From a virus, in IMG/VR virus record IMGVR_UViG_3300027608_000082, positions 1-37,100 of that record: DNA of 37,100 nucleotides, one strand, 5' to 3'. Position 1 is the stretch's first letter, and every line of letters starts with the position of its first letter. Under the pieces are notes generated by a model. That model was not told the DNA's origin, ran no database searches, and saw nothing but the letters and a program-made list of their open reading frames with translations. A program made the translations under genes and the position numbers. Of this stretch, positions 156 through 28,000 are shown in pieces.

Positions 156-184
156 TTGACAAATGACTTAATTTGTGTTACAAT
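156..184 (+). promoter_or_regulatory. Sigma-70 promoter P1
   Basis: The -35 box TTGACA is at 156-161 and the -10 box TACAAT at 179-184, separated by exactly 17 bp. Transcription would start near 191 and give a leader of about 110 nt before the first start codon at 304. That leader contains palindrome copy 1. The -35 region (TTGACAAA) resembles the promoters at 8625 and 17226. Confidence 0.8.
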
Positions 185-862: not shown

Positions 863-1942
863 ATGTCAAGAGAAATATCATTTGTCCGTCGGCTCAACTT
901 CACAGAGACCGTCGACCTCATCCTCAATGCGGGCGAGAACGCAGTGCACCTTACTGGAGAACCCGGAGTTGGTAAGACTGCCATGCACAAAGAGATCATC
1001 AAGCGCACCGGATTCAAGGGCATCTACATCGACGGCCCCAACACCGATGTCGGCCAGTCCGGTATGCCAATCCCCAACCATACGACTCGTACCTTGGATT
1101 TTTATCCCGCAGCGCGTTATGGTTTGCACACAGGCGAACCCCTTGTCATCATGATCGACGAGTGGACAAAGACTGATGACTATGTGCGCAACACCCTGCA
1201 CCCGCTACTGCATGAGCGCAGACAAGGCGACTATGAGTTGCACCCCGAGACCCTTGTCTTCACGACGGGCAACTTGGGTTCGGACAATGTCGGTGACCAT
1301 GTCAAGGCTCATACCCGTAGCCGCGAGACGTGGATCAACTACATGAAACCGACTGCGGCTGAGTGGTTGGTCTGGGCGGGCAACAACGGCGTAGCGCCCG
1401 AGATGCAAGCGTGGGTTAAGGAATACCCGCATTGCATGGCTTCGTACTTGGATGGCGGGCAGAAAGAGAATACGTACATCTATCAGCCGACTGACTCATC
1501 GCAGGAAGCGTTCTTCTGTCCCCGTACTGCGTACAAGGCATCGCATTGGATCAATGTACGTCGCAACATATCAGAGAATTCGTTGATCGCGGCACTCGAC
1601 GGCACGATCGGTAGGCCCGCATCGCGGGACTTGCAGGCGTACATCTCCCTGTCCGATCAGTTACCCATGACTGAAACGATCCTCTCCAGTCCTGATACGA
1701 CTCCTATACCGACAAGCCCAGCGGCTCAATGCATCTTGGCGTTCAAGGCCGTGGCTGTCTCTACCCGCGAGACGTTCGCAACATGGATGCGCTACCTCAA
1801 GCGTATGCCCAAAGAAACACAGGCTGTCTTTATCAACCAGATCCTCGAGATCCCTGTTAAGAAAGCATGGGTTATGTCTCACCCCTCGTTCGTTACATGG
1901 GCGCGTGAGAACCAGTACATGTTTGCCGGATTGAAAGGTTGA
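863..1942 (+). CDS. MoxR-type AAA+ ATPase
   Basis: A 359-aa ATPase of the MoxR/CobS-like AAA+ group. Motifs in order: Walker A GEPGVGKT (32-39), Walker B VIMIDE (95-100), sensor 1 TTGN (134-137), and a candidate arginine-finger segment HTRSR (150-154). The remainder is a helical C-terminal region. ATG 863 follows AAGGAAACC in the leader. MoxR-type ATPases usually work with a VWA-domain partner to remodel proteins or insert metals; a HExxH-VWA protein is encoded at 3560-4861 and a DUF3150-like protein at 6780-7652. Some phage and integrative-element versions are annotated CobS-like, but no cobalt-chelation genes are visible here, so that name would be misleading. The substrate is unknown. Confidence 0.85.
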   Translation: MSREISFVRRLNFTETVDLILNAGENAVHLTGEPGVGKTAMHKEIIKRTGFKGIYIDGPNTDVGQSGMPIPNHTTRTLDFYPAARYGLHTGEPLVIMIDEWTKTDDYVRNTLHPLLHERRQGDYELHPETLVFTTGNLGSDNVGDHVKAHTRSRETWINYMKPTAAEWLVWAGNNGVAPEMQAWVKEYPHCMASYLDGGQKENTYIYQPTDSSQEAFFCPRTAYKASHWINVRRNISENSLIAALDGTIGRPASRDLQAYISLSDQLPMTETILSSPDTTPIPTSPAAQCILAFKAVAVSTRETFATWMRYLKRMPKETQAVFINQILEIPVKKAWVMSHPSFVTWARENQYMFAGLKG

Positions 1943-2721: not shown

Positions 2722-2960
2722 TGACATTGGAAGAATCAAAATTGGCATGGCGTGGCATGGTTGCAACGTACAAGCGTATGCAGGATCATGTCCACAATTT
2801 GTGCTACCGCAAAAATTCAACAACGGGCCAGATACTCGAGGCTCGCGGTCTGGTATTGCAAGCCACTGCAACTATGACTCGCATGGCCAAGCAGTTGGAA
2901 CAGCAGTTTCCTGCCTACGAGTTTGACTTGGAAGGTAAATTTATCAGGAGAGCAAAATGA
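2718..2960 (+). CDS. Hypothetical helical protein (80 aa)
   Basis: ATG 2718 is chosen because AGGAG at 2706-2710 lies 7 nt upstream; the longer frame from 2691 would begin inside the palindrome. The product is basic, Met-rich and probably all helical (LAWRGMVATYKRMQDHVHNL, then MTRMAKQLEQQF). No recognised family. ATGA overlap with the next gene. Confidence 0.6.
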   Translation: MMTLEESKLAWRGMVATYKRMQDHVHNLCYRKNSTTGQILEARGLVLQATATMTRMAKQLEQQFPAYEFDLEGKFIRRAK

Positions 2961-3211
2961 GTATTGAAAAAGTTAGACGAGCTGATGACATTGAAGAAGC
3001 GCGTATACGTGCGGTGCAGAAAGCCATTGGGGCACTATTCAATGCCTCGGAGTTGACTAAAGCTATGGTCTGGAACGTACTTGTCAATATGCTCTGCGGC
3101 ATGACCATTGAGTTTGATATAGACAAGGATGATTTGATGGATACCGTTTCTAACGTGTACGACATGCAAGCGTTGCACATGGTCGAGCTTGACACCGATA
3201 AACCCAACTAG
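2957..3211 (+). CDS. Hypothetical protein (84 aa)
   Basis: ATGA overlap with the upstream gene; AGGAGAGC precedes the start. The N-terminal part is charged and helical (EKVRRADDIEEARIRAVQKAI). The second half is more hydrophobic with acidic ends (FDIDKDDLMDTVSNVYDM). No motif that I recognise. Cytoplasmic by appearance. Confidence 0.6.
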   Translation: MSIEKVRRADDIEEARIRAVQKAIGALFNASELTKAMVWNVLVNMLCGMTIEFDIDKDDLMDTVSNVYDMQALHMVELDTDKPN

Positions 3212-3220
3212 GGAGAGACC

Positions 3221-3385
3221 ATGACGATACCAGAGACCACCCGAGAACAGACCGTCGAGAAGGTCTATCAAACCGGCATGCAGCTTGCTCAACACTTGCG
3301 CATGCTTGACTTAAACGAGGAAGCCCATCTCTTGGAGATGTGGATTCTTGATGTCAAAGAAACAGGAGGACACCCAAATGATTGA
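3221..3385 (+). CDS. Hypothetical small helical protein (54 aa)
   Basis: ATG 3221 follows GGGAGAG. The product is an acidic, probably single long-helix peptide (EQTVEKVYQTGMQLAQHLRM, LNEEAHLLEMWILDV). The frame ends at 3385, overlapping the next start by 8 nt, so the Shine-Dalgarno AGGAGG of the next gene is coding here. Function unknown. Confidence 0.5.
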   Translation: MTIPETTREQTVEKVYQTGMQLAQHLRMLDLNEEAHLLEMWILDVKETGGHPND

Positions 3386-3563
3386 AGTATCAATCACAGA
3401 AATCGTATTGTTTGCGTGGGCGATCATAGCTACGGGCTATGCGCTCAAGTACAAACAGATCAAGCACCAATCGGATGTGTTTATCCACACACTGCTTGAA
3501 AACAAAGAACTGCGCGACGAACTTGTGGCAGATTATGAACAATTCCAGAGAGGACAATCATGA
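3378..3563 (+). CDS. Small single-pass membrane protein (61 aa)
   Basis: ATG 3378 is preceded by AGGAGG at 3364-3369. Residues about 6-22 (ITEIVLFAWAIIATGYA) form a convincing transmembrane helix, followed by basic residues KYKQIKHQ and then a charged helical tail. Positive charge after the helix suggests an N-out, C-in topology. The stop overlaps the start of the VWA gene, so it may help place that module at the membrane, although that is inference. Confidence 0.65.
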   Translation: MIEVSITEIVLFAWAIIATGYALKYKQIKHQSDVFIHTLLENKELRDELVADYEQFQRGQS

Positions 3564-4861
3564 GTACAGTAATTGTGAAGAGTAAGTTATCAGCCGAGAA
3601 ACGAATCGAGTTGGTACATGTGAGCTTGATGAGGAACCAGAAGTTTGCGTTCTTCGCGGGCTTGTTTATGGTCGGGTCTACGACGATAGATGAACGACCT
3701 GTAACAGCGTACACGAACGGTCGTGACGCAGGGTATGGCAGAGCATTCGCTGACTCATTGACCGACAAAGAGTTGGCGTTTCTTGTCATGCACGAGAACA
3801 TGCACAAGTGCTATCGACACCTGACAACGTGGAAAGCGTTGAAAGAGATCAACCACAAGGTAGCGGGCGCGGCGTGCGACTACGTGATCAACATCCAGTT
3901 GGTAGACATGGATCCCGATGAGGAATTCATCGCGTTTCCCCGTTCTAAAGAAACAGGTGAGCTTGATGGTTTACTCGACCCTGCTTATCGTGGCATGGAC
4001 ACCAAGCAAGTCTTCGACATTCTCATGAAGAAGTGCAAGGGTGGCAAGGGTGGTAAAGGTGGCGAGGAAGGCAACGGCAATCCTATCGACGGGTCAGGCA
4101 AAGGCAACGCCAAGGACGGAACAAACCAACCAAGTGTTGGTAAGTTCGGTGACAAGGAAGGCTTCGATGCCCATGACTGGGACGGTGCGCAAGAGATGTC
4201 CGAGGAAGAGAAGAAGCAACTCACTCAAGAGATCGAGCAAGCCATACGCCAAGGCGGTATCTATGCGGGCAAGTTTGGCGGCAAGACACCACGCGAGATC
4301 GGCGAGCTTCTCAACCCCAAGGTTGACTGGCGAGAGGTGCTGAAAAGATTCACCCGGAACAACATCAAGGACAGGGACTCTATCTCATGGCGCAGGGCGC
4401 ACAAGAACTTCTTGTGGCAAGACATCATCCTGCCGAGCATCCTTGGCAAGCGCATGAAGTATCTGTTGCTGGGTATGGACACATCCGGTTCTGTAGAAGG
4501 GCAGTTGCTGACGGACTTTCTCTCCGAGATGAATGGCTTGGTCAAGTCAGTTGGCATCGACCGCATCGACATCGTGTACTGGGACGCAGAGGTACAGGCG
4601 CATGAGATCTTTACAGGTTCTACCAAAGACATTGTGCACCGCACCAATCCCAAAGGCGGTGGTGGTACGAACCCTGACGTTGTGGTTGATCTGATTCTTG
4701 AGAAGCAGTTGAAGCCCGACGCGATCATCATGCTGAGTGATGGTTACATGCACACCAACAAGGGTAAGTGGTCTGCGATCACACAACCTACTCTGTGGTG
4801 CATCATCGGTAACGACAACTACGAGGTTCCAAATGGACAAAAGCTCGTCATTACTAACTGA
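3560..4861 (+). CDS. HExxH metallopeptidase-like plus VWA-domain protein (DUF2201-like)
   Basis: A 433-aa two-domain protein. The N-terminal domain carries HENMH (78-82), the HExxH zinc-binding motif typical of the putative metallopeptidase domain that precedes VWA-like domains in this family. A Gly/Lys-rich linker (about 155-200) follows. The C-terminal domain is VWA-like with the MIDAS motif DTSGS (307-311), a GGGGTNP segment and LSDGY near residue 394. Partner proteins of this type act with MoxR-type AAA+ ATPases, and one is encoded at 863-1942. ATG 3560 overlaps the preceding stop. Palindrome copy 4 sits in the linker. Whether the HExxH site cleaves anything is unknown; in some family members it may be structural. 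Confidence 0.8.
   Translation: MSTVIVKSKLSAEKRIELVHVSLMRNQKFAFFAGLFMVGSTTIDERPVTAYTNGRDAGYGRAFADSLTDKELAFLVMHENMHKCYRHLTTWKALKEINHKVAGAACDYVINIQLVDMDPDEEFIAFPRSKETGELDGLLDPAYRGMDTKQVFDILMKKCKGGKGGKGGEEGNGNPIDGSGKGNAKDGTNQPSVGKFGDKEGFDAHDWDGAQEMSEEEKKQLTQEIEQAIRQGGIYAGKFGGKTPREIGELLNPKVDWREVLKRFTRNNIKDRDSISWRRAHKNFLWQDIILPSILGKRMKYLLLGMDTSGSVEGQLLTDFLSEMNGLVKSVGIDRIDIVYWDAEVQAHEIFTGSTKDIVHRTNPKGGGGTNPDVVVDLILEKQLKPDAIIMLSDGYMHTNKGKWSAITQPTLWCIIGNDNYEVPNGQKLVITN
4119..4149 (+). repeat. Dispersed palindrome copy 4 (inside the VWA gene)
   Basis: GAACAAACCAACC (4119-4131), centre AAG, TGTTGGTAAGTTCGG (4135-4149). It is read here as GTNQPSVGKFG, a different frame from copy 3. It lies in the disordered Gly-rich linker between the HExxH and VWA domains, the place where a small insertion would do least harm. 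Confidence 0.8.
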
Positions 4862-5270
4862 TGCTGACCCACTGATCGTATGTGAGAAGTGGCATCGCTC
4901 TGTCGGAGTGAACATTGACCGCACATGGTTGGAGGTACGCTTGAACCCAGCGGGCATGAGACTTATCCAAGGGGTCGACGCAGATGTCGAATTCGTGGAA
5001 GGTTTCGGCCACCATGTTGAGGTGATGGGCGCGATGCACAACGCTGGAGTTACTCCGCTTGACTTGAAGAACCCTGATGGTCTGGAGAAACTTCATCGTT
5101 GGATGGTGAAGGAATCAAGTGAGTTGGATGGAGACCCGATCACTAGGTTTCTGATGCCCGATCTGTTACTGCACTTACTGGAAGAAGGTTTCCCGTACGC
5201 AGTGAAATGTAAAAACGATAGCCCCTTATTGGGTTGGTTTGTAGTTCTTGGAGGAAAACAGTATGGATGA
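4833..5270 (+). CDS. Hypothetical protein (145 aa)
   Basis: ATG 4833 overlaps the last 29 nt of the VWA gene and has GAGG at about 4823; the longer frame from 4737 would overlap the VWA gene by 125 nt. It looks like a globular cytoplasmic protein with acidic patches (GVDADVEFVEGFGHHVEVMG) and a helical C-terminal half (MPDLLLHLLEEGFPYAV). No family recognised. Translational coupling to the VWA gene suggests a role in the same module. Confidence 0.65.
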   Translation: MDKSSSLLTDADPLIVCEKWHRSVGVNIDRTWLEVRLNPAGMRLIQGVDADVEFVEGFGHHVEVMGAMHNAGVTPLDLKNPDGLEKLHRWMVKESSELDGDPITRFLMPDLLLHLLEEGFPYAVKCKNDSPLLGWFVVLGGKQYG

Positions 5271-5520
5271 AAATCAAGTGATTCTTTTTATTGGGGATCA
5301 AAAGTTTTTGTTGAGCATGGAAGAGGCTATGGATATCTCGCGGGTCTTGTGTGGTGCGTCACGCATTACTACATCATGGCTTGGTCAGGGGCACGAAAAC
5401 AGAAGCAACACAGTCATAGCCGAGCCTGACCCGAAGGCGGCAACCATTGCGCCAATGACTGGGATTATGCAGTTGGATATTGATACCAACATGAAGATTC
5501 TTGCGGAGAAGAAACGATGA
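5263..5520 (+). CDS. Hypothetical protein (85 aa)
   Basis: ATG 5263 has GAGGAAAA just upstream and overlaps the previous stop by 8 nt. Residues 4-33 look like beta-beta-helix (VILFIGDQKFLLSMEEAMDI). The C-terminal half is polar and probably flexible. No known domain. Confidence 0.6.
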   Translation: MDENQVILFIGDQKFLLSMEEAMDISRVLCGASRITTSWLGQGHENRSNTVIAEPDPKAATIAPMTGIMQLDIDTNMKILAEKKR

Positions 5521-5678
5521 CCAATTCAAAAACGGGGTACTCGGTTGCCCTTAACAAAGAAACCTTTGATCTCTTGCAGACCGTAAGAGAACAACTGGTA
5601 GGACTGATGGGCTTTGAGCCTACAAACGGACAGGTGGTTCGCCACTTAATTTCCCTCTTTATTGAAAGGAAGATGTGA
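5517..5678 (+). CDS. Small possible ribbon-helix-helix protein (53 aa)
   Basis: ATGA overlap with the gene before it. The layout of a short strand (YSVALNK) followed by two helices (ETFDLLQTVREQLVGLMGF and TNGQVVRHLISLFIERK) is what ribbon-helix-helix DNA-binding proteins show. Length and pattern fit, but there is no diagnostic motif. If correct it could be a local repressor, and the palindromes in this unit would be candidate operators; both points are inference. Confidence 0.5.
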   Translation: MTNSKTGYSVALNKETFDLLQTVREQLVGLMGFEPTNGQVVRHLISLFIERKM

Positions 5679-6724
5679 TGGGATACGGATACAGCGGATA
5701 CAACACAGCAAACGTGCCGTGCCTTGAATCATTCGAGGCTGCGGTACAGAAATTCAAATCAACTACGCCTATTCGCAGTAAGCAAGCGAAGGGCGCTGTC
5801 CCACTTGGTGAGCGCAAGAAGCACCACATGGCGAGCATCGCTATGCCTGACGACGACACAGTTCAACTGATCTACTACGGTAAGCCGTTGGTGGTATGGA
5901 AATCGGACGACACATTCGAAGTGTTCTCCCCGCATTACCACTCGCCGTACGTGGTCGGGAACATTCAGAACTACGTACCCAGTAGCGTAGGTTTTCACTG
6001 GGACAGAGGGCGCATGTGCTTGATTGTCAAAGAACAGAGGTTCCTGTTACCCCAAGACAAGAGCTTTAAGTTTAGGAACACACCCCATTCTGTAGAACTG
6101 CTTGATATTCCGATGGAGTACGCGATCAGAAAGAAGCGTGGCGTGGAGAAGAAGTATCTCAAAGACTGCGAGCCGTTCCTCGAATGGATGGAGTTGGTGC
6201 AGTCGATCGACAACGTCCCGAAAGATCCTGTCGACGAGATGGATGCCGCGATGGATGCTTTGTACAAAGAGCTTGGTCTCATGTCCATCAAAGGGTTTGA
6301 GAAGTGGTCGGCTGACTGGGCTTTGAGACCCGCAGAAGCAAACACCCCTGACCGATGGCAGATCAACCGTAACCGCGATTACTTACCGCATGGCGGGAAA
6401 GGCCAATACAAAGGTGCAAAACATGGCTTCCATACGAAAGGCTGCGAGTTGCTTATGGACTGGGTCACAGGCCCACTCAGTGAGAACTGGGTGACTGCGT
6501 ACTACGTACTCATGCAACAGCAAGGCGAGCGTGGGTATAAACACACCACCGGTGGCCGCGAGTGGTCTGTTTGGCTTGATCGCAAATCTGCCACTGAGTA
6601 CCTCAAGGAAATCATCTTGCATCTGCACTTTGACGAGTGCTTTGTCAAGGAACCGCTTGCGCAGGGCGAAATCCCAACCAAGCAGAACTCCGAGTACATC
6701 CATGTATTCACGGAGTTACTTTGA
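5678..6724 (+). CDS. Unknown phage protein (348 aa)
   Basis: ATG 5678 overlaps the previous stop (TGATG) and has AAAGGA 7 nt upstream; GTG 5675 is the less likely alternative. The protein starts MGYGYSGYN, has a mixed alpha/beta first half, a charged helical middle (DPVDEMDAAMDALYKELG) and an aromatic C-terminal part (HTTGGREWSVWLDRKSATEYL). I recognise no catalytic motif, signal peptide or membrane span. It sits between the VWA gene and the DUF3150-like gene and is a good candidate for a further component. Palindrome copy 5 begins at its stop codon. Confidence 0.7.
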   Translation: MGYGYSGYNTANVPCLESFEAAVQKFKSTTPIRSKQAKGAVPLGERKKHHMASIAMPDDDTVQLIYYGKPLVVWKSDDTFEVFSPHYHSPYVVGNIQNYVPSSVGFHWDRGRMCLIVKEQRFLLPQDKSFKFRNTPHSVELLDIPMEYAIRKKRGVEKKYLKDCEPFLEWMELVQSIDNVPKDPVDEMDAAMDALYKELGLMSIKGFEKWSADWALRPAEANTPDRWQINRNRDYLPHGGKGQYKGAKHGFHTKGCELLMDWVTGPLSENWVTAYYVLMQQQGERGYKHTTGGREWSVWLDRKSATEYLKEIILHLHFDECFVKEPLAQGEIPTKQNSEYIHVFTELL

Positions 6725-6752
6725 ACAAACCAACATTTCGTTGGTATGTTCG
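6723..6752 (+). repeat. Dispersed palindrome copy 5
   Basis: GAACAAACCAAC (6723-6734), centre ATTTC, GTTGGTATGTTC (6740-6751). Both arms match the consensus exactly. The element starts within the stop codon of the 348-aa gene and ends 28 bp before the next start at 6780, again about 30 bp upstream of a gene. Confidence 0.9.
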
Positions 6753-6779: not shown

Positions 6780-7652
6780 ATGCAAACTTTTGAATCTCCC
6801 CCAATCTCGCTGGCCTCAATGGCTATGCTTGTCGAACTCCGTATCAGTACGTGGACTGCGCGTAAGCGTGACAAAGAAACCACTGCTGACCTGAACACAG
6901 CCAAAGAAGCTGACCAAGACGCAAGCTCTGTGTACAAGTACCTCATGGCGGGCAGTGATCATCTCAACAAGATAGAGAAGTACGCGGCTAAGTGTCGTGC
7001 GTGGAATGGTACGCAGACCCTGCCGTGGATGAAGGGTATCGGCTTACTCCCGATGGAGAACTTCTTCAGCTATCGTGAACAGCTCGGTACTATGGAATCC
7101 AACTTCAACTCGCTAGTCAATGACTTCATACTAGCTTACCCGACGTTGGTTAGTGCGCAGGCGTTCAAGCTCGGTAAGTACTTCGATGCGTCAGAGTTTC
7201 CCGATGCCGCATCTTTGCCCCGTCGCTTCAAGTTTGAGTTCAACTTTCTCCCCGTCCCAGAGAAGGGTGACTTCCGCATCCAATGCGAGGAACGTGTACG
7301 TCAGGACTTGGCTGAGCAGTACGACAAGATGTTCAACAACAAAATGATCGAGGCTATGCGTGATCCGTGGGACAGACTGCACAAGATGTTGGCACGGATG
7401 AGTGAGACCCTGACTGACAAGGAAGATGGCAAACGCAATATCTTTCGCGATAGTCTGGTCAACAACGCTCTAGAGTTATGTGGTCTGTTGTCCGTACTCA
7501 ACGTGATGAAAGACCCAGCGCTTGAAGAAGCTCGACGTATGCTAGAGAAAGCAATCAATGGCATCGACGCGGAAGACCTACGCAAGATACCTAGCGCACG
7601 CGCTGAGTTGAAGCACAGCGTAGACGATATCCTCAACAAATTCCAATGGTGA
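6780..7652 (+). CDS. DUF3150-like protein of the AAA+/VWA module
   Basis: ATG 6780 is preceded by GGAAACC, as at the AAA+ gene; longer in-frame starts would run through the palindrome. The 290-aa protein is largely helical. The N-terminal VELRISTWTARKRD, the middle LGKYFDASEFPDAASLPRRF and the overall length resemble my recollection of DUF3150, a family of unknown activity found beside MoxR/CobS-like ATPases and VWA/CobT-like proteins in mobile elements. Finding it in the same unit as both partners supports this. No catalytic residues are evident; a scaffold or adaptor role is a guess. A profile search against DUF3150 would settle the family. Confidence 0.55.
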   Translation: MQTFESPPISLASMAMLVELRISTWTARKRDKETTADLNTAKEADQDASSVYKYLMAGSDHLNKIEKYAAKCRAWNGTQTLPWMKGIGLLPMENFFSYREQLGTMESNFNSLVNDFILAYPTLVSAQAFKLGKYFDASEFPDAASLPRRFKFEFNFLPVPEKGDFRIQCEERVRQDLAEQYDKMFNNKMIEAMRDPWDRLHKMLARMSETLTDKEDGKRNIFRDSLVNNALELCGLLSVLNVMKDPALEEARRMLEKAINGIDAEDLRKIPSARAELKHSVDDILNKFQW

Positions 7653-8532: not shown

Positions 8533-8560
8533 GACCCGCCTATGTGCGGGTCTTTTTTTT
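8533..8560 (+). terminator. Rho-independent terminator T1
   Basis: A 7-bp stem GACCCGC/GCGGGTC (8533-8539 and 8546-8552) around a 6-nt loop is followed by eight T residues (8553-8560). It lies 18 bp after the stop at 8514 and should end unit 1. Confidence 0.92.
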
Positions 8561-8564
8561 GCCT

Positions 8565-8595
8565 GAACAAACCAACACCGCGTTGGTATGTTCGG
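8565..8595 (+). repeat. Dispersed palindrome copy 6
   Basis: GAACAAACCAAC (8565-8576), centre ACCGC, GTTGGTATGTTC (8582-8593), then GG. Both arms match the consensus exactly. It begins 5 bp after the T-tract of terminator T1 and ends 30 bp before the -35 box of promoter P2. It is therefore probably not in the main transcript, which argues for a DNA-level role for at least this copy. Confidence 0.9.
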
Positions 8596-8624
8596 TGTAT
8601 AGTAGATACCCCTATTAAAAAGAC

Positions 8625-8653
8625 TTGACAAAGTCTAAAGTTACCCATATATT
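8625..8653 (+). promoter_or_regulatory. Sigma-70 promoter P2 with embedded inverted repeat
   Basis: TTGACA at 8625-8630, a 17-bp spacer, TATATT at 8648-8653. The -35 box is centred in the inverted repeat AGACTT-GACA-AAGTCT (8621-8636), a plausible operator. Transcription would begin near 8660, leaving a short leader before GTG 8676. The first 15 bases around the -35 box (ACTTGACAAAGTCTA) are identical at promoter P3. Confidence 0.85.
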
Positions 8654-8675: not shown

Positions 8676-9017
8676 GTGGCCGTAACCCCCGAAAGAAAAG
8701 TAAAGAACCAATGCGTCGATATGCTCAAAGAGCATGGAGCATACTACTTTTTCCCCGCAGCCAACGGCTTAGGCCGTGCGGGCATTCCCGACATCATAGT
8801 CTGCTTGCATGGTTACTTCTTAGCCATCGAATGCAAAGCTGGTAAGGGAAAGACCACCGCCTTACAAGACCGCGAACTGCAACGCATCCGCAACGCTGGA
8901 GGCGTAGCCCTTGTGATAAACGAAAACAACATGGACGAGTTGAAAGATGTGTTGATTGGTGTTGATAGCTATAACACAAGTGATCTGTTGAGAAACCTTG
9001 TAAAGGAAAAGAAATGA
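8676..9017 (+). CDS. VRR-NUC domain nuclease
   Basis: A 113-aa stand-alone VRR-NUC nuclease of the PD-(D/E)XK fold. Likely catalytic residues: D39 in GIPDI, E52 and K54 in the ECK motif; E6 near the N-terminus and the downstream Q-rich helix fit the family. Phage versions cut branched or otherwise structured DNA, possibly Holliday-junction-like intermediates. I choose GTG 8676 because AGGAGA at 8665-8670 lies 5 nt upstream, and because a longer TTG start at 8625 would place promoter P2 inside the gene. It is first in the replication unit and overlaps the next gene by ATGA. Confidence 0.88.
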   Translation: MAVTPERKVKNQCVDMLKEHGAYYFFPAANGLGRAGIPDIIVCLHGYFLAIECKAGKGKTTALQDRELQRIRNAGGVALVINENNMDELKDVLIGVDSYNTSDLLRNLVKEKK

Positions 9018-9442: not shown

Positions 9443-11265
9443 TCACTATCGACTTCGAAACTTACTACGCCTCAGACTACAGCCTCACCAAGGTGACGAC
9501 TGAGGAGTATGTACGTGACTCACGCTTCCAAGTTATCGGGGTATCGGTCAAGGTGAACAACAACCCCGCTGAATGGTTCACGGGCGATATGGAGGAGACC
9601 GCTGAGTGGCTGGCGGGCTTCGATTGGGAGAATCACTTCGCTCTAGCCCACAACTCTATGTTTGACGCGGCCATCCTGACATGGGTGTTTGGGCAGAAGC
9701 CCAAGGCATGGCTTGATACGTTGTCTATGGCTAGAGCAATACTGGGTACACAGGTGGGCGGTAGTTTGGCCAAGCTGGTTGAACACTTTGGATTGGGTGT
9801 CAAAGGCACTGAAGTGGTAGATGCCAAGGGATTGCGCCTAGAGGACTTTGGCGCGGAGCAGTTGGCAAAATACGGAGAGTATTGCAAGAACGATGTGGAG
9901 TTGACGTACAAGCTTTACAACGAACTCAACGCAACATTCCCCGTGCGGGAGAAGCGGCTTATCGACATCACGATCAGGATGTTTAGCGATCCACTGTTGG
10001 AGTTGGATACGCAGAAATTGGAAGAACATCTGAGCGCAGTGCGTGAGCGCAAGGCCAAGTTGTTTACTGATGCTGGGATAACGAAAGAGATATTGAACAG
10101 CTCAGCCAAGTTCGCTGAATTGTTGGGGCAGTATGTGCGACCGCCCATGAAACCCAGTCCGGCAAACCCAGAGAAGTTTATCTATGCGTTTGCGAAGAGC
10201 GATGAGCATTTTGTGGCGTTGCTTGGCCATCATAACGAAGCTGTGCAAGCTATTGTTGCGGCTAGGCTTGGCGCGAAATCTACGCTGGAGGAGACAAGAA
10301 CAGAACGGTTTATCAACATCTCACGCAGGGGGCACATTGGTGGCTCGCTTAATCGTCTACCTATTCCTTTGAAATACTACGCCGCGCATACTGGGCGGTG
10401 GGGCGGGGCTGACAAGATTAATTTACAGAACTTGCCAAGTCGTGGGTCAGAGGGCGGCAAGCTCAAGCGGTGCATCGTTGCACCTCGTGGGCATGTGATC
10501 ATTGACTGTGACTCATCGCAGATCGAAGCAAGGGTGCTGGCTTGGTTGGCGGGCGAGACGTATCTGTTGGAGTTGTTCCGGCAGAAAGCTGATGTGTACA
10601 AGCACATGGCATCGTCTATATACAGTACACCGGAGGACGATATCACCGCAGATCAGCGGTTCATTGGTAAGACTACTGTGCTTGGTGCGGGATACGGCAT
10701 GGGGGCGATTAAGTTTCAAACTCAGTTGGGCAACATGGGTAAGAACTTGGCCTTTGATGACTGCCAGTACATCATCAAGCAGTACCGCGCTGTGAACCGA
10801 CGGATCGCAAATTGGTGGAATCATCTGAATATGATTCTTCAGTTTATGTTGGCCAACAAGCCAGCCCAAGTGGACGCTGTGGGTTTGCTGGAGAGTTCTC
10901 CATTCACAGGAATACAACTACCCAACGGTCTGTTTCTCAACTACCCCGGACTTCTCAAGGATTCTGCGGGTCAATTTGTTTACGAGACACGTAGCGGGCT
11001 GAACAAGATATACGGGGGCAAGGTTGCTGAGAACTTGTGCCAAGCCGTTGCACGTTGTGTCATCGGTGAACAGATCATCCAGATTGAAAAACGCTACAGG
11101 GTTGTGCTGACCGTGCATGACGCTGTGGCTTGCGTAGTACCAGAGGACGAGGCAGACGAAGCTCGGGCCTACATCGAAGAATGTATGCGTACACCACCCC
11201 CTTGGGCTTTAGACCTGCCGCTTAACTGCGAGTCTGGAATGGCGAGGAACTATGGCGACTGCTAG
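9439..11265 (+). CDS. Family A DNA polymerase with 3'-5' exonuclease domain
   Basis: Start TTG 9439 overlaps the preceding stop (TTGA), with GAGGAA 6 nt upstream; the product is 608 aa. Exonuclease motif I is IDFET (D5, E7). The polymerase domain shows motif A DSSQIE (358-363), the O-helix R407xxxK411 of motif B followed by GAGYG, and motif C VHDAV (559-563). The usual motif C Glu after HD is Ala here, as I recall for some phage polymerases. There is no 5'-3' exonuclease domain, as expected for a replicative phage enzyme. It should copy the phage genome together with the primase-helicase at 18912-21749. Confidence 0.93.
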   Translation: MITIDFETYYASDYSLTKVTTEEYVRDSRFQVIGVSVKVNNNPAEWFTGDMEETAEWLAGFDWENHFALAHNSMFDAAILTWVFGQKPKAWLDTLSMARAILGTQVGGSLAKLVEHFGLGVKGTEVVDAKGLRLEDFGAEQLAKYGEYCKNDVELTYKLYNELNATFPVREKRLIDITIRMFSDPLLELDTQKLEEHLSAVRERKAKLFTDAGITKEILNSSAKFAELLGQYVRPPMKPSPANPEKFIYAFAKSDEHFVALLGHHNEAVQAIVAARLGAKSTLEETRTERFINISRRGHIGGSLNRLPIPLKYYAAHTGRWGGADKINLQNLPSRGSEGGKLKRCIVAPRGHVIIDCDSSQIEARVLAWLAGETYLLELFRQKADVYKHMASSIYSTPEDDITADQRFIGKTTVLGAGYGMGAIKFQTQLGNMGKNLAFDDCQYIIKQYRAVNRRIANWWNHLNMILQFMLANKPAQVDAVGLLESSPFTGIQLPNGLFLNYPGLLKDSAGQFVYETRSGLNKIYGGKVAENLCQAVARCVIGEQIIQIEKRYRVVLTVHDAVACVVPEDEADEARAYIEECMRTPPPWALDLPLNCESGMARNYGDC

Positions 11266-11530
11266 AGAGTCACACATGCGAAGGATAAAGCGCCTCATGG
11301 AGATTGGCAACATGCGCAAAGCTGGCGTATCAGTTGACGAAATTTCTAAGCGTTACGGTATTACTACTTCGTGGGTTTACATGCTACTGCGGGAGTTTGA
11401 TTTCATCACTTCAGTAGAGCAGTTTAGGTACAGCAGGAATCAGTTTTCTCGTTACATGAAGAAAGAAGAATCGAAAGAACTTATGCACATCAAAGATTGG
11501 CTTGAATTTTTAACAGAGGAAACTAAATGA
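11252..11530 (+). CDS. Small HTH protein (92 aa)
   Basis: ATG 11252 has GAGGAA just upstream and overlaps the polymerase gene by 14 nt; ATG 11276 is an alternative. Residues about 24-47 (AGVSVDEISKRYGITTSWVYML) form a clear helix-turn-helix of the resolvase/MarR-like or sigma-region-4-like kind. The rest is helical and charged. Probably a DNA-binding regulator or replication accessory; the target is unknown. ATGA overlap with the Cas4-like gene. Confidence 0.7.
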   Translation: MATARESHMRRIKRLMEIGNMRKAGVSVDEISKRYGITTSWVYMLLREFDFITSVEQFRYSRNQFSRYMKKEESKELMHIKDWLEFLTEETK

Positions 11531-15849: not shown

Positions 15850-17229
15850 ATGCAGACTTACACATGGCCGCGCCCTATGGGGTTTGAGCCTTTTGATCAT
15901 CAAAAAGTAACGTCATCATTTCTTGTGGCCAACCCTCGGGCGTTCTGCTTTAACGAGCAAGGTACTGGAAAGACTGCATCAGTAATATGGGCTGCTGATC
16001 AGCTCATGAATGCGGGCATAGTCAAGCGCGTCTTGGTTGTGTGCCCGTTGTCCATCATGCAGTCCGCATGGCAAGCTGACCTGTTTAAGTTTGCGGTGCA
16101 CCGGTCTGTAGACGTAGCATACGGAGACCCCAAGAAGCGGGCGAAGATTGTCACAGGCACTGCTCAATTCGTAATCATCAACTACGACGGTCTGGCCACA
16201 ATCGCGGACGAGTTGCTGAACTACGGCAGATTTGATTTGATCGTCATTGATGAGGCCAACGCCTACAAGAACGTCCAAACCAAACGCTGGAAGCTGATGA
16301 ATAGGATGCTCACGCCAAGCACACGGTTGTGGCTGCTGACCGGAACACCTGCTTCGCAGTCTCCGCTTGATGCGTATGGACTGGGCCGTCTGTGTGCGCC
16401 TAATAAAGCACCGCGTTTCTTTGGCGACTACCGCGAGTCTGTCATGCAGCAATTAAGTATGTATCGCTGGATACCACGCCCCAACGCAGAGCAGATTGTG
16501 TTTGATATGCTCCAGCCAGCGATTCGGTTTACCAAGGAGGAATGCCTTGATCTACCAGAAGTGATGCACATCAGTAGGTTTGCGGCGCTTACTCCATCGC
16601 AGTCCAAGTACTACAAGATGCTCAAAGACCAACTGCTTATTGAGGCGGCGGGCGAGGAGGTCAGTTCGGTCAATGCGGCGGCAAAGATGAATAAGTTGCT
16701 TCAGATTTCTTGCGGCTCGGTGTACACAGACACTGGAGCGGTAATAGAGTTTGATGTGTCTAATCGTTTGAACGTCATCAAAGAAGTGATTGACGAGGCC
16801 AGCCATAAAGTATTGATCTTCGTACCGTTCAAACACACGATATCAATGCTCAGTGAATACCTTGTTAAAGAAGGTATTACTTGTGAAGTCATCAATGGAG
16901 ATGTGCCTGTTTACGCACGCACAAGGATATTTAAAAACTTTCAAGAAACAAAAGACCCAAAAGTACTGGTGATACAACCCCAAGCAGCAGCACACGGGGT
17001 AACCCTGACCGCTGCCAATGTTGTCATCTGGTACGCTCCGGTTACGTCCACAGAGACGTATCTGCAAGCCAACGCCCGCATCAACAGGCCGGGCCAGCGC
17101 AATAACATGACCATAGTGCACATCGAAGGAAGCCCCATCGAGCGTAAGCTGTACGCCATGTTGCAGAGCAACATAACAAACCACGAAAAAGTGGTTGATC
17201 TTTACAAAAAAGAATTGGCAGATACTTGA
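15850..17229 (+). CDS. SNF2-type superfamily 2 helicase
   Basis: 459 aa, the compact phage form. Motif I GTGKT (38-42), motif II DEAN (134-137, in place of DEAH), motif III LLTGTP followed by ASQSP, and motif VI QANARINRPGQ (406-416) are all present in order, so both RecA-like lobes are complete. Such enzymes translocate on double-stranded DNA and in phages are thought to help replication, recombination or removal of bound proteins. ATG 15850 lies 3 nt after the HNH-like stop with only a weak ribosome binding site. It is the last gene before promoter P3. Confidence 0.93.
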   Translation: MQTYTWPRPMGFEPFDHQKVTSSFLVANPRAFCFNEQGTGKTASVIWAADQLMNAGIVKRVLVVCPLSIMQSAWQADLFKFAVHRSVDVAYGDPKKRAKIVTGTAQFVIINYDGLATIADELLNYGRFDLIVIDEANAYKNVQTKRWKLMNRMLTPSTRLWLLTGTPASQSPLDAYGLGRLCAPNKAPRFFGDYRESVMQQLSMYRWIPRPNAEQIVFDMLQPAIRFTKEECLDLPEVMHISRFAALTPSQSKYYKMLKDQLLIEAAGEEVSSVNAAAKMNKLLQISCGSVYTDTGAVIEFDVSNRLNVIKEVIDEASHKVLIFVPFKHTISMLSEYLVKEGITCEVINGDVPVYARTRIFKNFQETKDPKVLVIQPQAAAHGVTLTAANVVIWYAPVTSTETYLQANARINRPGQRNNMTIVHIEGSPIERKLYAMLQSNITNHEKVVDLYKKELADT

Positions 17230-17254
17230 CAAAGTCTAGTACAAGCCATATAAT
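17226..17254 (+). promoter_or_regulatory. Sigma-70 promoter P3 (perfect consensus)
   Basis: TTGACA at 17226-17231, a 17-bp spacer and TATAAT at 17249-17254, matching both consensus boxes at all twelve positions. The -35 box overlaps the stop of the helicase gene's tail (TGA at 17227-17229). ACTTGACAAAGTCTA is shared with promoter P2. Transcription would begin near 17261 and serve genes from 17282. Confidence 0.93.
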
Positions 17255-17711: not shown

Positions 17712-18602
17712 TTGAGCAACGTAACTACATACCGTGAGAACCTTCCCGCCCACTTGCAGAACGTGGCGCTGGATGACTTTACAAAAACCTTCACCTCATC
17801 CGGTGGTAGCGTCAAGCGCATCACACTGCGCGGGCGTGTCTTCCGTCTGGTCGATGGCGGCAAGGAGATTGCCAAGAACGTTGAGCCACACATGGACGTT
17901 GTGATCGTCAGTGGTAGCAAGACTGTGCAGAAGTCGTATTACGCATCTGAGTACAACGCCGAAGAGACTTCAATCCCTGATTGCTGGTCGAGCGATGGTG
18001 AGCGCCCCGATGCGGATGTTGAAGGCCCGCAAGCATCTACCTGCAAGGACTGCCCGCAAGCTATCAAAGGTGCAGGTGGCCCCGGTCGTGCGGCTTGCCG
18101 TTACTCATGGCGTTTGGGTGTTACCTTGCGCAACAACGTGGGCGGCGACATCTTCCAACTGATCCTGCCACAAAAGAGTATCTTCGGTACTGCCGACGTT
18201 GACCACATGCCGTTCTTGCAATACGCCAAGTACGTTGCCAGTTCAGGCTACAACTTAAACATGTTGGCCACTCGCCTGACGTTTGACACCGACAGCGATT
18301 TTCCCAAGCTGGTGTTCAGCAACGCGGAGTTCCTTGATAAGGACACCTACCAAGTCGCTGTAGCCCAAGGGCAGACGCAGGTCGCTGTCAATGCGGGCAA
18401 GATGAACTTCACCAAGAAGCAGGAAACTCCTGTGATTCCCAAGTTGGTTGCACCGGCTGGGTCTGCCGCCGCCGAAATTAAAGCAGAGGAAGAAGTGCCG
18501 GAACCCACAGTACGGCCAGAGAAGAAGAAAGCTACGCCTGAAGTCAAGCCCAAGCAGAACCTGTCTGCGTTGGTCGATGAGTGGGGCGACGACGACAAAT
18601 GA
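17712..18602 (+). CDS. Putative ssDNA-binding protein
   Basis: TTG start at 17712, directly after AGGAGAG at 17701-17707; no closer ATG gives the same spacing. The 296-aa product has a beta-rich core (ITLRGRVFRLVDGGKE), a CKDCPQ...ACRYS cysteine group (about residues 114-135) that may bind zinc, and a long Lys/Glu/Pro linker ending in the acidic tail DEWGDDDK. An acidic C-terminal tip is the usual docking peptide of phage and bacterial single-strand-binding proteins. The position between the conserved replication-linked gene and the primase-helicase agrees. Not proven by any catalytic motif. Confidence 0.65.
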   Translation: MSNVTTYRENLPAHLQNVALDDFTKTFTSSGGSVKRITLRGRVFRLVDGGKEIAKNVEPHMDVVIVSGSKTVQKSYYASEYNAEETSIPDCWSSDGERPDADVEGPQASTCKDCPQAIKGAGGPGRAACRYSWRLGVTLRNNVGGDIFQLILPQKSIFGTADVDHMPFLQYAKYVASSGYNLNMLATRLTFDTDSDFPKLVFSNAEFLDKDTYQVAVAQGQTQVAVNAGKMNFTKKQETPVIPKLVAPAGSAAAEIKAEEEVPEPTVRPEKKKATPEVKPKQNLSALVDEWGDDDK

Positions 18603-18820
18603 TTGGATACAGCCAGAAAGTTGCGCGGCTCAATAAAGCGGCTGACATAAAGAACTTGGGTGTTCGTCTGGGGAGGTTTTGCATCTCCAACGACATCCCT
18701 GTTGCCTATGTCATGGAGTCCTTTGGTGTGACTAAGCAGACTGTGTACAACTGGTTCTTTGGAACCCACGTACCCAGCGCAAATCACCAGAAAGACATTG
18801 CAACTTTTTTGGGTCGCTAG
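18599..18820 (+). CDS. Small Cro-like HTH protein (73 aa)
   Basis: ATG 18599 overlaps the preceding stop (ATGA); a longer frame from 18581 would lack a ribosome binding site. Residues about 34-55 (VAYVMESFGVTKQTVYNWFFG) make a clear helix-turn-helix of the XRE/Cro kind with a recognition-helix-like TKQTVYNWF. Probably a DNA-binding regulator acting on nearby promoters; P3 and P2 are obvious candidates, by inference. It ends 7 bp before a structured leader. Confidence 0.72.
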   Translation: MIGYSQKVARLNKAADIKNLGVRLGRFCISNDIPVAYVMESFGVTKQTVYNWFFGTHVPSANHQKDIATFLGR

Positions 18821-21978: not shown

Positions 21979-22007
21979 GCCCCGCCGTAAAAAGCGGGGC
22001 GTTTTTT
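21979..22007 (+). terminator. Rho-independent terminator T2 at the point of convergence
   Basis: A 7-bp stem GCCCCGC/GCGGGGC (21979-21985 and 21994-22000) with loop CGTAAAAA is followed by G and six T residues. On the - strand the stem is followed by AAATTAAG, so it works mainly for the rightward units. It ends inside the stop codon of the leftward gene. Confidence 0.9.
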
Positions 22008-25000
22008 ATTGCGCGTCCCTTCCAAACGGATTTTCTCCGGCTGGTGTACTTTCCTCCACGGGGGCTGGCTTGTTCTCCTCCTCCGTTATCTTCCGTATGT
22101 ACGTGTCTTTGAACAAGTAACGCAGTTTGGGGTTGACGTACAGACCATGATCTGATTCCGCTTGTTTCTCAAGCTTACCCCGTACAGAACTCAGCAGGGT
22201 ATCTACATCCACCGCAATCGTTGGGTACTTGGCGCTAAACTTAATCAGGTCTGCAATTGCTTTTTGCGTGCCCTTTTCATCGTTGGTCATTATGGTCAGA
22301 CCAAAGATGTTCAGTAAGTTTTCGCGGTTCTTAAGGATTGCTTCACTTTGGCCTTTAACTTTTATGTTGCGGAATTGAATTTCTGCAAGCTCAGAAGAAC
22401 GTATACCTAGAGACTGCATCATCAATTCAAAGGGTGTAAAATCTTTTTTCATGATGTCACCCTGCAAAGTCCGCGCACCTTTAGTTGCGTACCTATCGGC
22501 AATAAACGGCTGTTTTGCAAACCCGGGGAGCAGGGCTTCAGCGGCGCGATCTCCATGACCTTTGTTGTAAAGGTCGTATGCACGTGCAAAGTTAACGCCT
22601 AAGTTTGGAAGTGGGCCAAGTGCGGCTATATACATTTGTTTAAGCGAGGCTTCTGCGTCTAAGTTATTACGCCCGTCTCTAAACCACATATCATCCAGTT
22701 TCAAACGGCTGTTTAAATCTATACCAGCGGCGTTGCCAACACCACGTGACACCATAGTGCCCATGTTCTTACCAAACGTATTGACCGCCCAGTTTGCAAA
22801 CTCAAGCTCAAAGTCAAACGGTTCGTCATCATCGTCACCAAAAGCCGCACAAGCTTCAACAATAGCCGCCACAGTCGAAAAGCCCCAGAGACCAGTGACT
22901 CCAGTCATGATGGCAGTCGTACCCATTATGCCGACAAACCTAGCGCGGGCTTCGCGCTTATCCGCTTCTGGCAATTTACCAGATGAATTCCAAGCGTTGC
23001 GGGCCAAGAACCAAGTCATTTGGTGCGGAAATTGTTTAAACTGAAAAATAATCCTTGCCGGTGCGCTTTGCAACCAACGGGGTTTGTTGACACCCGAGTA
23101 ATCAAACATAGCCCGGTGCGTCAAATCTTTTGCGTCGGCTATTGACTCGGTAAACGTATTCCTGCGCATACCACTCAGTTCACGCCGCAGAAGAACCTCG
23201 GCCTTGGAATTACCGGATTGAACGGCAGTATTAAGGTTATTTACCAAATCTTTGTATCTCTTTGACGCTTCCATGTCAGCAACGCGTTTCTCATAAGCTG
23301 CCCTAAAAGAAGTCATAGCCATAACTTCGCGGTTGAACCGCTCTGCATGGTGAAAAGAATAAGCAATAACCTGCATTGCTTTGTTTGAGAAACCAGAATA
23401 ATCAGTGGTTGCGTTTGATGCTAGACCCGATTGATCATAAGTTGCCGTTATATCAATTAGTTGATCAGCAACAAAACGGTTATATGCCGCCCTGTCTATA
23501 GCGGACAAAGATTTTGATCTATCCAGCGATGGCGACAAAAGCCTTGACTCCATAAAGCTCCCACCACCTTCAATATCAAACCCCGTGGCAAAAATCTGAG
23601 CTGCTGTTTTTGATGCGCTGTACAGCACTCGACCCGTTGCTTCTGTGTACCCCATATTAGGATACATGCGGACTAGCTGGCCAACCATTGTCGGTATTCC
23701 AATTACTGCACCGCCCAGCACGTTGATTGCCGCAGTACCAAGAGAACTCAAATAGTAAATGAACCCAAGGTTTGAAAGCCCCGCTACCCATGCACCCACG
23801 TCAACTGGGTCTAATATTGCCTTTAGGCGCTTGTCAAGTTCGGTTACATAGCCGGTTAGTTCATCATTTTCCGCAGTTACTACCGGGTCGTATCTTGCCC
23901 CGGGTGTAAACCTACCCTTAATCTGCGCTCGTGCCGCCGACAACTGAGAGAACATCTCGGGGGAGTATTCCAAACGAGCCATTTGATACGCCATACTGTA
24001 AGACGACGACGAAAAAACGCGGAGGGCGTCTTCAGAGTATCCCGCAACACTGTTGCGGTGAATAAAAGCATTACGCATACTACGCTCTGGCTGGTTAACC
24101 AAATACGTCTGGTACAAGTTGTCTTTCATTTCGGCTTTTCGATCTGCTGCGTCAATTAGCGAAAGACCTGTTATGTTCATGCTGTCTATGGCAGCAAAAG
24201 CTTCTTTTAAAAAATTAGATTGACTGGCGTGCAAATCCATTTGCTGTTTATACTCACTGCCTATATTTGGGCCGATGGAGTCTTCTAACGCAATGCGGGC
24301 GGCTTGGTTAGGTGCTTGCTCCAATCGCTCTTGCAAGTGCGCTTCCCGCGCAGCTTGTGACTCAAACATGTAGTACTCGCGCTTTGCCCCCTTACCAATC
24401 TGATACCAGAATTGGCCAAAGCGCATAAGTGGAAAGTAAACCCCTTTTCTCTTTCCTTTTTCGAACTCAGCACGAATTTCTATGATGGTTTTTGCGTCCG
24501 CGCCGCCAGACGCAAGATCACTTTGTACTTTCTTGGTAAACCCAGAGCGCAGCAAAGTATTTAGCGTGTCCTCAGAAGGACTGTAATTTTCAATACGAGC
24601 CAAAACATTTTCCGGCACGCCTTCAATGTGCGCCAGCATTTTAGAAATTTGATAGTTAGACGGGCCAAGTCCGCGCATGTTGTTTATGCGTTGTCTCATT
24701 AACCGTTTATATTGGTTGTACTGACGTTCGTAGAAATCACGTACCGCGCGGTAGATGTTTCGGGCTTCAGGAGTAAGTTTGTTCCAGTCGGCCATTAACT
24801 GGGGGTTATTTATTTGTTGGGCGCGTGTGGCTTTGTCTGGGTCGATTTCCAAAATTGTTGCGCTGTGCATGACAACACCGATTTGGCGCGACATAGCAAA
24901 ATTATTAGCCTGCAACCGAACCCATCTACGAGATATGTCCCCTGACTCTTTCAGCGTGTTTGCTGTGCGGGATAGGAATTTATCTGCCTCCTTGATAAAG

Positions 25001-28000
25001 TTATCAATTTGCGGGATACGCTTGGCAACCAAATCATTTATCTGGCGCAAGGTTAGCCCGCCAAGATATTCTTTGCGTCTCTCGTGGGCAAAACTGCGAA
25101 TTTCTCGCATCTTCCCCTTTGTCCATGTGTTAGCCGTCAGCAATCGTCTAATAGTAGACGGCTGGTTGGGCATGCCTTGTGGCACAGTTCTTGGTGGCCT
25201 TTGAGTGGCCATCGCTCTTGGCGCAGGTGGCCCCGGAATAGTCCCGCCCACTTCATTCATACCTTGCAGAGACATCGTACCGGCCATCATTGCATCAGCA
25301 GCAAACATGACTTCGGCCATGACGTTGCTTGGCTCGCCGGGCTTCACTTTAAACATCTTGCTTATAGAATCAGTAAAGCGATTCCAAAGAGAGAACGGAG
25401 AAGCCTTGTACCGGTAAGAGCGCAACACGGCTTGCAGTTTGGGGTTTGTCAACGCCTCGGCCACAAACTCATGTAAGTCTTGTAAACCGTAGAAGGGGTT
25501 GTCTGTTACCCCCTGTTGGTTCATCATATCTTTGGAGTACTTAAACAACTCTTCAAGGCGCTCGTAACCTTGACGCTGTATGCCAACCAGTTTGTCAGCG
25601 TTGTCGATTAAATACGATGAAGCCGCGTGAACAGTTTCATGCAGCAACAAGTGATTGGTGAGTTTGCTATCGCCCTGACGCATGACAATGGTGTCACTTG
25701 CAGGATCGTACTTACCATCCCACGCAAACTCCTTGTTTACTAAGTCCGTCACACTGTCAAGAAGTTGCTGATTTGACTCAGTACCGTTATTGCTACTTAA
25801 CGTATCTTCAATCGTATCCAACGCAAATATTAAATTACGTAACTTACCCGACTTCAGATCTTTTATGATTGCTGCTTGTTGCTCTTGAGGGTACAGCGTA
25901 ACGATCAGATCACGCAAAGCATCCAAACGCTCGTTGAGCGACTCTGTAATTTGTGGATTATTCGACAAAGACTCCAGCACATCCGCTTCTATCAAACGAG
26001 TTTTTGCTGTGAACCCGGTATCTAGCAGGCGCTGCGCAAGTTCGGCGTAATACTTGCTGTTCTTTGTTTGCGCAAGAAGCTCAAGCGCTTTACGGGTATT
26101 GCCCTTTTCCAGTTCCCTAACAATAGCCGGATGCACGTCATACAGCATCTCAAGGGAAGGTATATTTTCCAGATTTATTTCTCTGGTTGGACTGAGAGTT
26201 TCTTCTCCTTCACCCGCTTCCGTTTCCATCTCTGTCAACATTTTCTTGGAGATGCGCTCTCTTTTTCTTTTTGGGGCTTTCGGTAGCTTTGCCCCATTCT
26301 TCTCTGCTCTGTCGCCTTCTTCTTCAACTCGAGCTTTGAGCTGCTTGTTGTACTCAGCCTTGGCTTTTCTATATTCTTTCTTTGCCTCAGCGTTCTGTTT
26401 GTTCTCGGCAACCAACTCATCTAGCAACTCCAATGTAGATGGGTCTAGGTTAGCCGCAATCCACGCACGGAAGTCTTTTGCGTACTCGCCACCTTCTCTA
26501 TAAAAGGTTGAACCAGCGCCATAGTGTTTACGGTTTACCTCAAAATAGGCAAGATCAAACGCCAAATCTCTGAGGGCATCTCCAAATGTAGTCCGGTTCA
26601 AATTGGTCAAGTACGTGATGGCAGCTTGGGCTTGTGCAGAAACCTTGCCGCCGATCATTTGCTTAAGTATCAAAGCTGCTGGGCGCAGTTTGTTATCGTT
26701 TATGTCACGAACTACATCACGTATTGCTTGGCTTGGCTCGCGGGGTTTGCCGCCTTTTGGTGTTGCGTAGGCGCTGGTTACCATTGCACCAGTAGTTATT
26801 GTTTCTTGGTACGGTATTTTTGTGCCAGTAACTTTTGACGGGCGCATCTTACTCGTTCTTATATTAAACAGCGGGCCTTCCCCTGTACCCATCATCTGGT
26901 CTACATATTCCTGCACCTGTGAACTGAACTCATCCATACCACGGCGTGCGGTCAGGTCTGGCAGTCCAGCTTTTTTTAGTAAGTCTGATTGCGTCTCTGG
27001 GTCTGCGTTTTGTAGCGCGTCTAGTAATTGGTTTAATTTTTCTTGGCCACCAACACGACGGGCAAGATAGTCGAGCATCTGCTGTGCGCCAGCGCTGGTC
27101 GTCTCGCCCGGCTGAGCAATATCGAACTCCAGCATGGTGTTAGCGGCAGTGTTTCTAGAATTGCCGTGACGCTCTTGTTCCGCCGGAGAATTAGAAACAG
27201 ACTGGATGGAATCAAAGAAACCTTTGATTTTGCCGCCTTCTTCTGTTTGCGGAACATGTTCCGTATCTACTTTTGGCGCACGGATAGGATTGCCTTTTTG
27301 GTCGTACCTTACTTCTTCTTTATCTTCGTCTTCGTATAAGTCTTCTTCAACTTGTTCTTTTTGTGGTTTGGGTTGGGGTTTATTCCCGGGCGCTTCCGCC
27401 CCCTCAAATAACTTACCCTGCATCGCACGGGGTTGGCCAGTATCTTTTTGCAACATGTCGATCGCGTGGTCGATCTCAGCGTTCGATGTCTGCAAGTAAT
27501 TCTGGACAATCGAGTCTCTGTTCTTGAGTGCTTGGCCCGACGACATATTGGCGGGCCGCATGCTAATAATCATTGCGTCGGTATATCCGCCGGAATCAAC
27601 CTTCTCTTGGATGCGGGCGCGGTTGTCCTCTAACTCCGCGATCGCTCCGTCTACGCTTTGCCCGGCCAACGCCATCGCGTTCTTCATGCGGCGGGCAGCG
27701 CCTTTATAAAGACCAATCAAACTACCCTGCATTGCGCGGGGCTGACCAGAACTCGGTTCAAGTTTGGCCAAAGCTTTTTCCCCATTAAACATAGGGTTCT
27801 TAAGTTGAGCGGCCAACCCTCTGTTGCGGATAAGCCCCATGTTGGCATCTACTATCGCTGCCAAGTCTTTCAGAATTAGCCCACGCTGGTTCATGCCCGC
27901 TTGATCTATCTGGCCCATAGGTAAAGAGTTGTATTCATCTCTTAAGTCGGTGTACTGCCGTACAAAATCCCTGTAGGCCTCAACGGACTGTGTAGGGGCA

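Follow-up and report, generated by a model that had tools for sequence, protein, structure and literature searches.

The palindrome at positions 8565-8593 of the analysed window, a 37.1-kb IMG/VR virus record, lies between an intrinsic terminator and a sigma70-type promoter, and this order of elements recurs among its viral relatives. It is the last of a series of split palindromes that occupy syntenic positions along one transcription unit, share one half-site word within each genome and carry different words in different lineages. The series is probably an array of operator-type sites in double-stranded DNA, read by a putative factor that co-evolves with them. The window itself probably represents only part of a longer genome, as the contigs of relatives attain 62-66 kb.

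Terminator, palindrome and promoter at the unit boundary

An earlier note on this DNA, made from its letters, had reported the order terminator, palindrome, promoter at 8533-8653, and our analysis confirmed all three elements in these places. The intrinsic terminator (8533-8560, plus strand) consists of the stem GACCCGCctatgtGCGGGTC at 8533-8552 followed by a run of eight T residues to 8560, and it closes the unit that extends from the gene gX to the gene g7657. The palindrome, which is the sixth copy in the window and corresponds to site S9 of the family, is 29 bp long (GAACAAACCAAC-accgc-GTTGGTATGTTC, 8565-8593). Flanking bases allow the stem to be lengthened to 8563-8595, and the limits of 8565-8595 assigned previously contain the site together with some of these bases. 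The promoter (TTGACA-17-TATATT, 8625-8653, plus strand) matches the consensus at 11 of 12 positions and belongs to the VRR-NUC/DNA polymerase unit. The first gene after copy 6 encodes a VRR-NUC/Hjc-like nuclease (8676-9017, plus strand), its GTG start being assigned from the reading frame.

The same arrangement was observed throughout the family. A terminator was located directly upstream of the S9 palindrome at all 26 family sites, the window included, the two being 4-15 nt apart, and a recognisable promoter occurred downstream at 25 of the 26, the -35 element beginning 13-47 nt past the palindrome. The window also contains a perfect sigma70 promoter (12/12) at 17226-17254, which has no palindrome copy nearby and shares 78% identity across 32 nt with the promoter that follows copy 6.

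Palindrome copies in the window

Six copies of GAACWWWCCAAC-N5/6-GTTGGWWWGTTC were found in the window, starting at positions 242, 803, 2668, 4119, 6723 and 8565. When the 29-bp pattern was searched with up to 3 mismatches, 4 matches were returned against 0.00 expected from dinucleotide shuffles of the window, a count that leaves out the two copies with a 6-bp spacer. Copy 1 (S3, 242-271) is located in the leader of a promoter TTGACA-17-TACAAT (156-184, plus strand) and begins 58 nt after its -10 element; its middle triplets show opposite polarity and one base deviates (GGAC). Copy 2 (S4, 803-832) lies just 5' of the start of the AAA/MoxR-like ATPase gene (863-1942, plus strand), a member of the site-bearing unit, and copy 3 (S5, 2668-2696) occupies the gene junction 3' of it. 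Copy 4 (S6, 4119-4147) falls within the coding sequence of a VWA/metallopeptidase-like DUF2201 protein (3560-4861, plus strand), in a variable linker. Copy 5 (S8, 6723-6751) overlaps the stop codon of the gene at 5675-6724 and precedes the DUF3150 protein gene (6780-7652, plus strand).

The exact motif was searched in 2.9 million viral contigs and was detected in only 7 others, all of them relatives, with 5-8 exact copies each.

On the minus strand, the window encodes a protein of 2480 aa (22006-29448) that matches DarB-like proteins and carries an LPD39 domain. A virion RNA polymerase using the palindromes as hairpin promoters was considered and discarded, as this protein lacks the polymerase motif patterns searched for.

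Lineage-specific words at syntenic positions

A search with the AAA ATPase returned 49 related loci with 54-100% identity over the best segment. De novo palindrome clustering showed that nearly all of these loci carry sets of 12-5-12 palindromes, with 5-11 sites per locus in the 32 loci for which the sets were refined. The half-site word differs per lineage (e.g. GAACnnnCCAAC, GAACnnnCCGAC, GAACnnATCGAA, GGAAnnACCCTT and GGAAnnnTCGAC); from one lineage to another, all copies of a genome are respelled in concert, and the spacers vary in sequence. Each genome thus holds what is expected of an operator array, namely many non-random copies of a single word. Five contigs (G004, 64.9 kb; G005, 51.7 kb; G013, 62.5 kb; G008, 64.8 kb; G010, 63.6 kb) were searched over their full length with their own word, and every match fell inside one stretch of 9-11 kb. 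The relative L064 has no 12-5-12 architecture and carries instead the shorter palindrome CGGGTCAC-N-GTGACCCG, present in 6 copies with up to 3 mismatches at 2871-6524 against 0.10 expected. Four leader hairpins GCAGCCTGCCGTCTCAGGCTGC, or close to it, were also observed in L064 before ribosome-binding sites.

The sites were placed on genes by tblastn with the window proteins and assigned to classes S1-S9. Although the word differs per lineage, the sites are syntenic among the relatives within about 9-11 kb. S1 precedes gX and S2 is located upstream of an HNH-like gene, S3 lies in a promoter leader and S4 before the AAA gene, while S5 follows this gene and overlaps its stop codon in many lineages. 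S6 is inside the VWA coding sequence, and both S7 and S8 are at gene junctions. Where a strong leader promoter was detected, the S3 sites and the extra upstream (U) sites start 32-80 nt after the -10 element, mostly at 38 or 52-59 nt, and in lineages with two strong leader promoters each promoter has its own site. The sites are therefore found at promoters and in intergenic positions near start and stop codons, as operators would be.

Two further small structures were noticed in the leaders. In many relatives the gX leader (e.g. L020, 6459-6494) contains a second small hairpin, such as GAGCGTTTTGCTC, between S1 and the gX start, followed by the conserved ribosome-binding stretch CTTTATTGGAG; this hairpin is a possible attenuator. 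In S3-type promoters of several relatives (e.g. L025, 7096-7162), the -10 element is immediately followed by a short palindrome, for example AATCTACTTTAGTAGATT.

Half-sites in double-stranded DNA

The variation among the copies was examined at the level of the single arms. Complementarity between the arms at positions 1-4 and 8-12 equals the expectation for half-sites drawn independently from the same genome, and arm mismatches are mostly uncompensated, with 161 single-arm deviations against 16 compensated ones. The middle triplet (positions 5-7) is usually unpaired and is paired less often than expected for independent half-sites. Compensatory changes within the copies of a genome, as an RNA hairpin would leave them, did not exceed the half-site expectation. 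Moreover, S6 occurs in two VWA reading frames among the lineages, with different peptides and the word kept, indicating that the nucleic acid is what is conserved. The half-site behaviour, the S6 frames and the position of S9 favour double-stranded DNA as the functional form, and the uncompensated mismatches, the S6 frames and the lineage words together point to half-sites recognised by a co-evolving trans-acting factor.

On the top strand, the middle triplets at S1-S3 are rich in T and those at S5-S6 are rich in A (A 0.30-0.33 and 0.72-0.76, respectively). This strand flip was not retained as a polarity signal; it is partly due to stop codons and to coding constraint at S5, S6 and S8.

Alternative explanations

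The palindromes might mainly form RNA hairpins in leaders and junctions, with an RNA-binding phage protein acting through them on processing or translation. Most copies do occur in transcribed leaders or gene junctions shortly 5' of start codons, and the site S1 of L024 (6502-6531, GAATGAAGGGAC-attcct-GTCCCTTTGTTC) has both arms changed away from the word at the other sites of that genome, a compensated double change. G.T mismatches on the top strand also exceed A.C mismatches (35 vs 16, p=0.011, collapsed to cluster-site events), a mild RNA-like sign that could also derive from a transcription-linked mutation bias. However, arm complementarity is no higher than for independent half-sites, the middle triplet is usually unpaired, an Rfam search returned no family matching the palindromes and S9 stands between terminator and promoter throughout the family; on this balance we consider a mainly RNA-based function unlikely. 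The suggestion of the earlier note that an RNA-only role does not suit copy 6 is sustained by the conserved terminator/site/promoter order and by the independence of the half-sites, and it is confined to this copy, as the others may still have a role in RNA.

Within a DNA-based function, sites for partition, condensation or nucleoid-type organisation (parS/KorB-like) would also appear as dispersed palindromes with one word per genome, and could include one within a coding region. The sites do not, however, extend beyond a single transcription unit and are associated with its promoters, terminator and gene junctions, and a search of eight contigs of 58-66 kb, possibly incomplete, returned no match for ParB (PF02195); a partition-type role is quite improbable. 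Integrase (PF00589) and resolvase (PF00239) likewise gave no match in these contigs. A DNA-binding protein of the host, with the word following the host, would agree with the observation that the word also tracks a virion-linked protein, as expected if it tracks host range. The exact motif of the window group gave one lone match in 257 Gb of bacterial and archaeal genomes (84,980 genomes, among which the hosts may be absent), and this counts against a host reader because chromosomal sites are normally to be expected for a regulator of the host; we regard this explanation as very unlikely. Mobile repeats or recombination sites joining modules are brought to mind by the 12-5-12 architecture, which resembles tyrosine-recombinase core sites, and by the location of copy 6 at a module boundary, where the earlier note had listed a recombination point among the possible functions. 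Against this stand spacers that vary in sequence, a word common to all copies of a genome, fixed syntenic positions retained through word change and the lack of any integrase or resolvase match in the eight contigs; no clean empty site was noticed in the comparisons made. Mobile repeats or recombination sites appear extremely improbable.

Candidate reader proteins

For the operator-type array, the best candidate reader is gX, the first gene of the unit, which lies outside the window and carries S1 in its leader; we consider it less likely than not to be the actual reader. Among 14 region genes compared, gX was the one most strongly linked to the word once background divergence was taken into account (partial Mantel 0.53 between gX divergence and word, 0/5000 permutations), and a windowed scan, carried out on gX only, located the strongest signal in parts of the N-terminal half (0.51-0.56). 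When the comparison was extended genome-wide to 54 ortholog groups in 19 genomes, a 733-aa ejection-like protein scored 0.51, a 330-aa protein 0.49 and gX 0.46; gX is in the top word-tracking group, and not alone there. The protein has no recognisable DNA-binding domain. Its AlphaFold2 models are confident per residue (pLDDT 84-85) with a moderate pTM of 0.52, and their comparison with the PDB and viral libraries returned no significant fold match. An alignment of 26 gX sequences offered no conserved stretches for a search of distant relatives, and a 7-sequence subset recovered 14 loci, most of them in already known contigs.

Three small proteins of the window had previously been nominated as binders of the palindrome, and all of them look unlikely as readers. 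The frame at 18599-18820 belongs to a Cro-like HTH protein (18581-18820, plus strand) that was judged unlikely, as its recognition helix, V-S/T-K/R-Q-x-V/I-Y-x-W, is nearly the same across lineages with different words. The HTH_23-like protein at 11252-11530 is present in only 9 of 50 loci, and the product of 5517-5678 has no DNA-binding family match and co-varies weakly with the word.

Proposed mechanism

Taken together, the data suggest that a phage control protein docks at these sites and so prevents transcription of the gene block. Of the functions listed in the earlier note for copy 6, that of operator is the best, while a binding site for a replication protein gains no support, as the sites span one transcription unit of ~9-11 kb and not an origin.

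In the proposed mechanism, copy 6 would be the last double-stranded DNA operator of an array extending over the unit of gX, the HNH-like gene, AAA, VWA, DUF3150 and g7657. We infer a phage-encoded, probably dimeric DNA-binding protein that would read two 12-bp half-sites per site, each composed of an outer 4-bp box and an inner 5-bp box with 3 loosely constrained, mostly A/T bases between them. Along the unit, both start-up and elongation would be blocked wherever sites are occupied, in promoter leaders, between genes and within the VWA coding sequence. At copy 6, the protein would sit 4-15 nt behind the terminator as a backstop against read-through into the next unit; placed past the T-run, it would encounter the polymerase at the U-tract and might thereby strengthen termination, with a possible further effect on the promoter of the next unit. 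The full stoperator-like roadblock, with the array closed by copy 6 behind the terminator, is in our estimate somewhat better than an even prospect at most.

The presumed purpose would be either early-gene shut-off or immunity. With integrase, resolvase and ParB all undetected in the eight contigs, nothing indicates a lysogeny repressor, and early-gene shut-off is as likely as immunity. In its most complete and rather doubtful version, the proposal would have gX, with a new fold, and about nine lineage-specific 29-bp split palindromes shut one early unit by roadblock, the last site backing the terminator, with words and reader co-evolving as a specificity for early-gene shut-off or superinfection exclusion in phages where no integration genes were detected.

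Some 30 genomes provide a natural series in which a whole operator array has been respelled in step, and site-reader co-evolution could be tested by word swaps. The array points to a possible new DNA-binding fold and, if the proposed mechanism is true, stoperator-like control extends beyond the temperate phages of mycobacteria and Bacillus to an uncultured family with no detectable integration genes.

Comparison with known systems

A search of the open-access literature found no report of such an array, which is weak evidence of absence. Homologues of the AAA protein in cultured phages are distant, with 21-26% identity among the matches listed, and many of these phages are N4-like. In those parts of the KPP25, CRP-7 and VBP47 sequences that were read, dispersed palindromes were not above the shuffled level with 12-nt arms, and with 6-nt arms reached at most 2-3 copies. 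A similar replication gene set was found in the cultured Rhizobium phage RHph_TM3_14A (L185). This phage has 31 dispersed copies of GTTACC-N6-GGTAAC with at most 1 mismatch (3892-39693, against 0.07 expected), an 18-bp word that, unlike that of the window family, extends over most of the 41.9 kb read and not over one unit. This separate palindrome array offers a comparable system open to laboratory testing.

The early hairpin promoters of N4-like phages (Schitoviridae) have short stems and 3-nt loops and serve the virion RNA polymerase. The present family resembles them in having hairpin-capable repeats in the early region and differs in that the 2480-aa protein matches only the N-terminal part of the N4 virion RNA polymerase family. 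The KorB operators of plasmid RK2 are about a dozen dispersed palindromes of 13 bp, at varying promoter distance, read by a ParB-family protein and capable of repression at a distance; the sites described here are likewise dispersed palindromes, but no ParB was found.

In phage SPbeta, the repeated element SPBRE is located at various intergenic places and is read by the master repressor MrpR/YopR, which recognises a 15-bp motif and whose unusual fold is that of a tyrosine recombinase (PMC10516654). The two systems share one repeated word at promoters, leaders and gene junctions of a phage genome; unlike the case of MrpR, Pfam finds no protein with the tyrosine-recombinase fold here, and the gX model is without a match among known folds.

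The stoperators of L5 and other Cluster A mycobacteriophages are many copies of one word read by one repressor in temperate phages; a monomer binds each of these asymmetric 13-bp sites, which have one main orientation to transcription and are located in short intergenic spaces and at promoters, the word drifting with the repressor between relatives (PMC9283540, PMC6550527). The present sites differ from them in that they are split palindromes of 29 bp limited to a single unit, for which no repressor was recognised. Instead of a single site orientation, only the middle triplets are strand-biased and this bias changes along the unit, and the integration or partition genes of a temperate phage were not detected in the eight contigs, which may be incomplete. 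Like the L5 stoperators, the sites use one word per genome, are placed at promoters and gene junctions, and drift in spelling between relatives.
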